Shown piece after piece: positions 22,709 through 25,493 of a DNA stretch of 64,000 bases. A program made the translations under genes and the position numbers. The notes below the pieces were generated by a model. It searched no databases, was not told the origin of the DNA, and saw only the letters and a program-made list of their open reading frames with translations. Numbering within the stretch: position 1 is the stretch's first letter; the number at the start of each line of letters is the position of its first letter. Source of the stretch: Mucispirillum schaedleri. Lineage in GTDB: Bacteria > Chrysiogenota > Deferribacteres > Deferribacterales > Mucispirillaceae. The stretch is taken from positions 1 through 64,000 of the forward strand of contig CASEIN010000062.1 in assembly GCA_949287985.1 (NCBI GenBank). The letters run 5' to 3'.

Positions 22709-23059
22709 TCATTTTTTATATGATGTTTCTCTTTTTTCGTTTATTATTTTCCAAACATTATCTTCTTTTATAAAAAACGCTTTTGCATAATATGTTATTA
22801 TATCACCATCTTCCAAGTTTTCAACATTTTCCATAAATAATATTTCTGCCCATTCATTATTATATAAAACTTTATAAATTTCAACATTAACAGGCGATAC
22901 AACTTCTATTAATTTAAAAAAATGTTCCCTATACACTTCTACACTGGGAAAAAATTGCCTAAATTCGCTGTCAATACTGTAAATATCGTATATTTTCTCA
23001 TAATCTTTATTTTTAAAGTGATTTATTCTATCTTTTATTATATTTTCTATACTATTCAT
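22709..23059 (-). CDS. small NTF2/SnoaL-like protein
   Basis: The 116-residue cytoplasmic protein has the alpha+beta order of NTF2-like folds: an N-terminal helix (IIKDRINHFKNKDYEKIYDIY), a second helix, then long antiparallel strands ending ITYYAKAFFIKEDNVWKIINE. The 'FxKEDNxWKI' ending is typical. No catalytic residues can be assigned. It starts within the last eight bases of hflX, so it is translationally coupled to it. Confidence 0.5.
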   Translation of the reverse strand: MNSIENIIKDRINHFKNKDYEKIYDIYSIDSEFRQFFPSVEVYREHFFKLIEVVSPVNVEIYKVLYNNEWAEILFMENVENLEDGDIITYYAKAFFIKEDNVWKIINEKRETSYKK

Positions 23060-24698
23060 CTAAACTTCCCAAGCCTTCTTTAAAGAAATAATAGCTTATT
23101 TTTACAAGCATATTATCAAAACTTTTTCTATTCAAGGCTGATACATATACTGCATTAGGATATTCTTTTTCTATTTCTTCCAACTGCTCACTGCTGATTT
23201 TATCTATTTTATTAAATACAATAAGTCTTTCTTTTTCTAATAAATTCATTTCTTCTAGCACTTTTTCAACGGATTTTATATGCTTTCTAAAATGTTTATC
23301 ACTAATATCTACAACGTGTAAAAACATATCAGCATTATGCAGTTCTTCTAATGTAGATTTAAATGCACCTGCTAAATTTGCAGGTAAATCCCTTATAAAA
23401 CCTACTGTATCTGTAATTATTACATCTTTTTCTTTTGGAAAACGTATCCTTTTACTTGATGTATCAAGTGTTGCAAAAAGCAGGTTATCTGCATATACAT
23501 CTGATTTTGTTAAGCTGTTTAGTAGTGTTGATTTACCTGCATTTGTATAACCAATAATAGATACTACAGGCAGTGAATTTTTTTCTCGTTTTGCTCTTTG
23601 TATATCACGCGCCTGCTCTGCTTTTTTTAGCTTATCATTTAAAAAAGCTATTCGTTCAGTTATTCTTCGTTTATCAATTTCAAGCTTAGTTTCCCCCGGT
23701 CCTCTACCACCAATACCACCTGTAAGACGTGATAAACTATCATCTTTCACATTTAAACGTGGAAGAATATATTTCAACTGGGCAAGCTCCACACGTATTT
23801 TTCCTTCATTACTTACTGCCCTGCGTGCAAATATATCTAAAATAAGCTGAGTTCTATCTAATATTTTTAACTCTGTAAATTCTGATACTGCTCGTGACTG
23901 CGATGGAGATAAACTGTTATCATAAACAATATATTCAGCTCCTGATAATAATGCTTTAATAACTGCTTCCCTTAATTTCCCAGGCCCTACAACGTATTTT
24001 GGGTGAATTTCTTTTTTTATCTGCGGCATTCTTGCAATTATAAAAAGCCCTGCACTTCGTGCTAATTCCTCTAATTCATCAAGGTATATTTCACTTTCTT
24101 CCTTGCTTTTAAATACACCAGTTAATACTGCATATTCCCCTGTTTTTGCAGTATGAAGCCCTATGGTTTTTCTTTCTATTTCATCATCTAATGCTTCAAT
24201 AAATAATGGATAGTCTGTTTTTTGATTGTATGGGTCGCTGTCTTCTAAATATCCAAACTTGGTTTCTATATCATTTATATCTGGTGGCAGTATGTAGGAA
24301 GTATCTAGTGATTTTGGCAACCCTTTATTATCCATAGCACATGCTGTAACACTATCAAGCCTTAATAATGCTAAATCTGCCAAATCGTCATGGTCAAGCC
24401 CATCGCCTTTTGGGTGAGTATGTATTAACCTTAAGCCCCTTAACCTGCCTGGCGCTAATTTAAATCTTGATAAAACTGGAATTGTTATGTCTTCTGCTGT
24501 GCCTGCAAGAACATATTCTATTTTTCCTGCCCTGTCTATTAATAAACCAAGCTGCCTGCCTGTTTCATAGGAATAAAAACAAAGCTGTTTTAATATATCT
24601 ATGGAAATCAATTCTCTGCCATGGTTTTTCTTGTGCAGGAATTTTTCTATCTGTTTAATTGTTTTTTGGGATATACCCTCTAAATTACCGTATAATAT
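23052..24698 (-). CDS. hflX: GTPase HflX, probable non-canonical start
   Basis: HflX is a ribosome-associated GTPase that splits stalled or idle ribosomes. Visible are the HflX N-domain (GRQLGLLIDRAG, IHTHPKGDGLDHDDLADLALL, YVVGPGKLREAV), the Gly-rich linker (LTGGIGGRGPGETKLE) and G domain motifs GYTNAGKST, DTVGFIRDLP and NKIDK. The first normal start codon in frame is TTG at 24611, but 29 further codons upstream encode LYGNLEGISQKTIKQIEKFL, which matches the usual HflX beginning YGNL.G. That extension has no ATG, GTG or TTG and is closed by an in-frame TAA. The start is given at ATA 24698, with AAAAGGA eight bases before it. Confidence 0.85.
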   Translation of the reverse strand: MLYGNLEGISQKTIKQIEKFLHKKNHGRELISIDILKQLCFYSYETGRQLGLLIDRAGKIEYVLAGTAEDITIPVLSRFKLAPGRLRGLRLIHTHPKGDGLDHDDLADLALLRLDSVTACAMDNKGLPKSLDTSYILPPDINDIETKFGYLEDSDPYNQKTDYPLFIEALDDEIERKTIGLHTAKTGEYAVLTGVFKSKEESEIYLDELEELARSAGLFIIARMPQIKKEIHPKYVVGPGKLREAVIKALLSGAEYIVYDNSLSPSQSRAVSEFTELKILDRTQLILDIFARRAVSNEGKIRVELAQLKYILPRLNVKDDSLSRLTGGIGGRGPGETKLEIDKRRITERIAFLNDKLKKAEQARDIQRAKREKNSLPVVSIIGYTNAGKSTLLNSLTKSDVYADNLLFATLDTSSKRIRFPKEKDVIITDTVGFIRDLPANLAGAFKSTLEELHNADMFLHVVDISDKHFRKHIKSVEKVLEEMNLLEKERLIVFNKIDKISSEQLEEIEKEYPNAVYVSALNRKSFDNMLVKISYYFFKEGLGSLDE

Positions 24699-24725
24699 AT
24701 GTTTTTCCTTTTAGTTTTTTTTATG

Positions 24726-24754
24726 CTTATACAATGATATCTTTATTTTTTCAA
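24726..24754 (-). promoter_or_regulatory. sigma70-type promoter for hflX
   Basis: The minus strand reads TTGAAA, a 17-base spacer and TATAAG. A transcript starting about seven bases later would have a leader of about 20 bases containing AAAAGGA just before ATA 24698, consistent with translation beginning there rather than at TTG 24611. Confidence 0.6.
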
Positions 24755-24768
24755 CACTTATTATTTAA

Positions 24769-24797
24769 TTGACTTATGAATATTCTTTATTTATATA
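24769..24797 (+). promoter_or_regulatory. sigma70-type promoter, predicted start at the rluA-type ATG
   Basis: TTGACT, a 17-base spacer and TATATA. The -10 box ends six bases before the ATG at 24804, so transcription would begin at or next to the start codon. No ribosome binding site is visible. It lies back-to-back with the hflX promoter. Confidence 0.55.
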
Positions 24798-24803
24798 CTT
24801 TTT

Positions 24804-25493
24804 ATGAATTTAATATATAAAGAAATTTATAAAGATAACAATTATCTTATAATCTATAAAGAACATGGTGTTCATGTAATAAATGATAGGCAAATGCAGC
24901 ATACTCCATTAATTGATATTCTTCGAAAGAAATATGGAAGCCAAATATATGTATGCCACAGGCTTGATGCTGGCACTGCTGGACTTATGGTTTTTGCTTG
25001 TAATAAAAATGCTCATACATATATTTCAAAACTTTTTGAAGAAAATAAAGTGCAAAAATATTATCTTGCCGTTGCTTCTTCTGCCATATATAACCAAACA
25101 GTTATGCTGCCTATTGCTAAAAAAAACCATGGCAGGTATGGTATTAACTTTAAAAGTGGTAAAAAAGCCATTACTTCATTTTATAATATTTCTTCAAATA
25201 GTAATGCATCATTAATTCTTGCAAAACTCTATACTGGAAGAACTCATCAAATTAGAATTCATCTTAAAGCTTTAAAAGCTCCACTTTATTATGATTTTTT
25301 ATATAATAAAAAAATTGATGATAAAAGGCTTTCTTTAGAATGTATCTATTTAAGTTTTTATGATAAATTTACTAATAAAACTCTTTCATTTACATCAGAA
25401 ATTTCTTTTTTTATGGATAATTTAATTAAAACTCTTGAATTATCTCATAAATTTGTGTATCAATATCTCTATGAAAATAAAGAAGAATTATAA
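24804..25493 (+). CDS. RluA-family pseudouridine synthase
   Basis: The 229-residue protein isomerises uridine to pseudouridine in rRNA or tRNA. The catalytic-aspartate motif is CHRLDAGTAGLMVFA, and YTGRTHQIRIHLKALKAPLYYD is the second family motif (quoted part GRTHQIRIHLKAL). It is a short form without an S4 domain, as in RluA/RluE-like enzymes, so the target base is unknown. No Shine-Dalgarno sequence precedes the ATG, and the promoter places the 5' end at the ATG, which suggests leaderless translation. It overlaps the first heptosyltransferase gene by 23 bases. Confidence 0.88.
   Translation: MNLIYKEIYKDNNYLIIYKEHGVHVINDRQMQHTPLIDILRKKYGSQIYVCHRLDAGTAGLMVFACNKNAHTYISKLFEENKVQKYYLAVASSAIYNQTVMLPIAKKNHGRYGINFKSGKKAITSFYNISSNSNASLILAKLYTGRTHQIRIHLKALKAPLYYDFLYNKKIDDKRLSLECIYLSFYDKFTNKTLSFTSEISFFMDNLIKTLELSHKFVYQYLYENKEEL

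Follow-up and report, generated by a model that had tools for sequence, protein, structure and literature searches.

Where does translation of the gene for the ribosome-splitting GTPase HflX begin in Mucispirillum schaedleri, in which the conserved N-terminus of the protein is encoded without a canonical start codon? The question was raised by a 64,000-nucleotide stretch of this species (positions 1 to 64,000 of contig CASEIN010000062.1, assembly GCA_949287985.1), hereafter called the window, for which an original prediction, made from the DNA alone, had proposed that hflX starts at an AUA codon. The codons AUA, AUU and AUC, here collectively AUH, are start codons that initiation factor IF3 discriminates against. 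To our knowledge very few bacterial genes have AUH starts, and only in infC is such a start conserved as deeply as the one described below.

The hflX locus in the window

When read from the AUA codon, hflX occupies positions 23052-24698 on the minus strand, within an open frame at 23052-24710, and encodes 548 amino acids. The product contains the N-terminal, middle and GTPase domains of the HflX GTPases (TIGR03156; PF13167, PF16360 and PF01926), with scores of 86.3 bits for GTP-bdg_N, 97.7 for GTP-bdg_M and 76.8 for MMR_HSR1, all above the curated cut-offs, and its homologues are of the TIGR03156 type. Judged by these domains, it is a complete, long-form HflX. The first domain begins at residue 205, and the extension of about 204 residues in front of it (24087-24698, minus strand) was matched by no Pfam model; it contains a conserved HTH(P/L) motif and a conserved DD..DLALLRLD stretch. 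The divergent neighbour of hflX, at 24780-25493, appears to be an RluA-type pseudouridine synthase-like gene.

Starting from the in-frame TAA that closes the hflX frame upstream (24713-24711), the minus strand continues AAG GAA AAA CAT ATA TTA TAC GGT AAT TTA GAG GGT, where ATA is the proposed start codon (24698-24696). A Shine-Dalgarno sequence, AAGGA, is located 7 nt 5' of the AUA (24706-24710, minus strand) and is found in register in nearly all orthologues. Upstream of TTG 24611 the frame contains no ATG, GTG or TTG and a single CTG, at 24638. Since no other start yields the conserved N-terminus, AUA 24698 is very probably the start of hflX. AUH starts of the infC type are recognized by the lack of a canonical start for a conserved N-terminus and by an AUH codon with an in-register Shine-Dalgarno sequence that is conserved among orthologues, and hflX displays both features. 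Among the 53 genes called in the window, it is the only one with a convincing AUH start.

Further upstream there is a promoter-like pair on the minus strand (24754-24726), consisting of a -35 element TTGAAA (24749-24754) and a -10 element TATAAG (24726-24731) separated by a spacer of 17 nt. The pair was not listed by our automatic promoter scan because the scan demands a T as the last base of the -10 element. Folding of the leader revealed no strong structure (z-score 0), which rules out an mRNA hairpin that masks the start. The original prediction had correctly noted the absence of ATG, GTG and TTG codons for the N-terminus and the TAA just upstream, as well as the Shine-Dalgarno sequence and the promoter, but the Shine-Dalgarno spacing is 7 nt rather than eight. 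The -10 element ends 27 nt before the ATA.

Conservation of the start codon

We aligned the locus from ten genomes of the genus Mucispirillum, an alignment that is gapless from the hflX start codon onwards. Four genomes start hflX with ATA, four with ATT and two (G008 and G009) with ATG, always at the same position. All ten have AAGGA, reduced to AGG in G004, 7-8 nt upstream of the start, and the promoter pair, with TATAAG or TATATA as its -10 element and the same 17 nt spacer, 25-28 nt before it. In codons 2-29 the numbers of variable sites at the first, second and third codon positions were 6, 6 and 20, a pattern that identifies this N-terminal segment as coding.

To extend the comparison, we examined the start codon in 41 Deferribacterota genomes with a long HflX, of which 37 had ATA, ATT or ATC and four had ATG. 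The codon ATC was assigned, by an automatic rule, in one genome only. The ATG cases were the two Mucispirillum species and two members of the sister order (G043 and G044), in all of which ATG occupies the same codon. The spacing between the Shine-Dalgarno sequence and the start was 4-10 nt in the Deferribacterota and mostly 4-10 nt across orthologues. In a more distant family, represented by three genomes (G040-G042), HflX is short and its likely start is GTG, TTG or ATG.

The N-terminus encoded in the window also matches homologues in other families and in the Nitrospirota. With a search centred on a Nitrospiraceae record (L041) that sequence similarity had brought up, we identified the long N-terminus in 141 of 148 Nitrospirota genomes and read the start codon in 90 of these, namely the best 30 matches and 60 spread down the remaining ranking. 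A uniform rule assigned an AUH start to 83 of the 90 (29 ATT, 28 ATA and 26 ATC), three of which are doubtful (L106, L113 and L166), so that the count is about 80-83, while the others had ATG (four), TTG (two) or GTG (one). In 75 of the 90, the nine codons preceding the anchor motif included no canonical start, and in L127 and L133 the AUH codon is directly abutted by a stop codon. Most of the AUH loci have a strong Shine-Dalgarno sequence of the GGAGG type. The long HflX genes that we read outside the two phyla, from Fusobacterium in a plasmid collection and from a metagenomic contig (L358) in a set of viral contigs, start with ATG, and none was found in the phage collection. In E. coli K-12, hflX starts at TTG, also a weak codon (L357 around 673).

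The survey strongly supports the proposed start at ATA 24698: the corresponding codon is AUH, with a Shine-Dalgarno sequence in register, in 37 of the 41 Deferribacterota genomes and in about 80-83 of the 90 from Nitrospirota. Nearly all relatives examined have kept the AUH class, and the feature spans two phyla. An ATG at this position in other strains had been named as an observation that would count against an AUA start; ATG is indeed present in two of the ten congeners, but since it occupies exactly the same codon it confirms the position of the start and leaves the reading for the species of the window unchanged. Gene finders that accept only ATG, GTG and TTG would truncate HflX in both phyla, because most of the genomes lack all three codons ahead of the conserved N-terminus.

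Start codons of other genes

We also examined the start codons of control genes. Of 29 infC loci from genomes of both phyla that could be read, 27 started with ATA, ATT or ATC in a tally made by eye, including the one in the window's own genome (TGGAGGTGTGCCATACCG). Across these loci (L187-L216; L199 in the genome of the window) the codon was ATA in nearly all sampled genomes. The AUH states of hflX and infC are imperfectly linked: infC starts with ATG in G123 and G170, where hflX has AUH, and the reverse is seen in G009. For der we counted only the rows from 17 Deferribacterota genomes, one of which (L411) was read by eye, as several Nitrospirota rows seem to be matches to the second G domain; 16 of the 17 start with ATG and one with TTG, and none with AUH.

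For a genome-wide control, we scored about 1670 genes in 2.0 Mb of the single-contig congener G006, the last 0.35 Mb lying outside this segment, by a combination of coding signal, Shine-Dalgarno sequence and start codon. Convincing AUH starts were obtained for three genes, dxs, hflX and a uvrD/pcrA helicase, and the remaining high scorers were judged by eye to be internal or weak. The dxs gene appears to start with ATA or ATC, with GGAG upstream, in the genus Mucispirillum and in one neighbouring genus (G011), and with ATG in the other families of the order (L322 in the genome of the window, L319, L320, L321, L325 and G006:C1:101092). Likewise, the uvrD/pcrA-type helicase gene appears to start with ATT behind a strong Shine-Dalgarno sequence in six of six Mucispirillum genomes, and with ATG in other families (L341 in the genome of the window, L337-L340 and G006:C1:1865042). 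The AUH starts of these two genes are thus limited to near relatives, unlike that of hflX.

A model for IF3-sensitive expression of HflX

It is known that HflX splits 70S ribosomes and that IF3 stops the free 30S subunit from rejoining the 50S subunit (PMC9067457). As summarized in later papers, a change of the infC start from AUU to AUG abolishes the autocontrol by IF3 (Butler et al. 1987; via PMC1780047, PMC5472188), and in S. aureus infC starts with AUA (PMC13009471). We suggest that hflX is controlled by the same logic. The mRNA would begin at the sigma-70-type promoter with a leader of about 20 nt, and AAGGA would guide initiation in the cell to AUA 24698. Discrimination by IF3 against AUH on the 30S subunit would keep the output of HflX low, and the output would rise when IF3 becomes limiting. 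The limiting element would be the start codon rather than a hairpin, since the leader is without a strong fold. Since AUH is also the start of infC in these lineages, the anti-association activity of IF3 and the splitting activity of HflX may both be set by one gauge, the ratio of free IF3 to 30S subunits.

Taken as a whole, an AUA-started hflX with a low output that responds to IF3 through its AUH codon is the best explanation of the data, with a probability of about 0.75. Its regulatory part, control of HflX expression by IF3, is plausible from the comparative analysis and is strengthened by the use of the same codon class for infC in the same genomes.

It is also conceivable, albeit somewhat improbable, that the AUH codon merely fixes HflX at a constitutively low level, with no meaningful response to IF3. 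The same sequence data would fit, E. coli hflX itself has the weak start TTG, and there is a precedent in E. coli pcnB, which is limited by its AUU start according to a secondary account (Binns and Masters 2002, via PMC1780047). On the other hand, discrimination by IF3 is general to AUH codons, so that some IF3 sensitivity is to be expected, and the codon class is shared with infC of the same lineages.

Evolution of the start codon and alternative starts

A strong Shine-Dalgarno sequence could make the start codon nearly irrelevant, in which case AUH would drift neutrally. To quantify the codon changes, we inferred a FastTree protein tree from 130 HflX sequences and counted start-codon changes by parsimony. 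There were at least 20 changes among ATA, ATT and ATC and at least 8 between AUH and canonical codons. This ratio, 8 of 28 changes, is close to the neutral expectation and would not by itself reject drift at the third position, and the GGAGG-type sites at most AUH loci fit the same idea. However, with the exception of the two sister-order genomes and a GTG/ATG pair of the Nitrospirota, canonical hflX starts were placed at isolated tips of the tree without any spread, and start codons of other genes are stable, as seen from the roughly three AUH starts among the 1670 genes of G006 and from der, with ATG or TTG in 17 of 17 genomes. We therefore consider neutral drift unlikely. The persistence of AUH in hflX across two phyla, together with the scarcity of such starts among other genes, points to selection. 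The trait is not essential, given that hflX starts with ATG, GTG or TTG in two species of Mucispirillum and roughly nine further genomes.

A true start at TTG 24611 or CTG 24638, with the conserved peptide upstream not being made, is very improbable. TTG is a normal start codon, and gene finders limited to ATG, GTG and TTG would pick it or a later one. But the first in-frame canonical start, TTG 24611 (24609-24611, minus strand), has no Shine-Dalgarno sequence, occurs in the species of the window and in none of the nine congeners, and would cost 29 conserved codons, and the upstream peptide is under coding constraint and matches homologues from other families and from the Nitrospirota. Both TTG 24611 and CTG 24638 were consequently rejected. 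Finally, the window stems from a draft genome of 79 contigs, but a sequencing or assembly error, with an ATG misread at this codon or a start lost through a missed base, the latter raised with the original prediction, has a negligible chance. It is already refuted by the comparison, in which more than 100 further assemblies, among them the single-contig or near-complete genomes G006, G020, G023 and G028, have AUH at this position.

Relation to known systems

The AUA start of hflX resembles that of infC in its codon class, its in-register Shine-Dalgarno sequence, its deep conservation and its presence in the same genomes. The difference is that infC mediates a feedback of IF3 on itself, whereas hflX does not encode IF3, so that its control would be that of another gene. 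In Streptomyces, sigR is repressed by IF3 through its GTC start (PMC5472188), which likewise couples a non-canonical start outside infC to IF3, although the codon is not AUH and both the gene and the phylum are different. Like hflX, E. coli pcnB, as described in the secondary account, is a single chromosomal gene limited by its start codon, but its product is not a ribosome factor. The S. aureus genes ccpN (AUA) and cvfC1 (AUU) also combine a conserved AUH codon with a strong Shine-Dalgarno sequence, and are expressed in poor medium at about 10% of the level with AUG (PMC13009471); as described, their conservation is narrower and the genes are unrelated. A ribosome-associated GTPase that needs AUU for its full length is similar to hflX, but was proposed in two scattered species with no conserved pattern. 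In a literature search whose scope stopped short of most subscription journals, we found no paper that links hflX to a non-canonical start.

From sequence comparison, hflX thus appears to be a further AUH-started gene beside infC, with an unusual depth of conservation. The conservation of AUH across two phyla suggests a long-lived translational control of hflX. More tentatively, and at somewhat less than even odds, HflX and IF3 may constitute a conserved translational module whose IF3-sensitive AUH starts set both factors and so tune ribosome splitting to free IF3 per 30S subunit, and which either predates the split of the Deferribacterota and Nitrospirota or arose in both. That the second gene with a phylum-wide AUH start acts on the ribosome suggests that IF3-sensitive initiation may serve to tune ribosome splitting in these bacteria.
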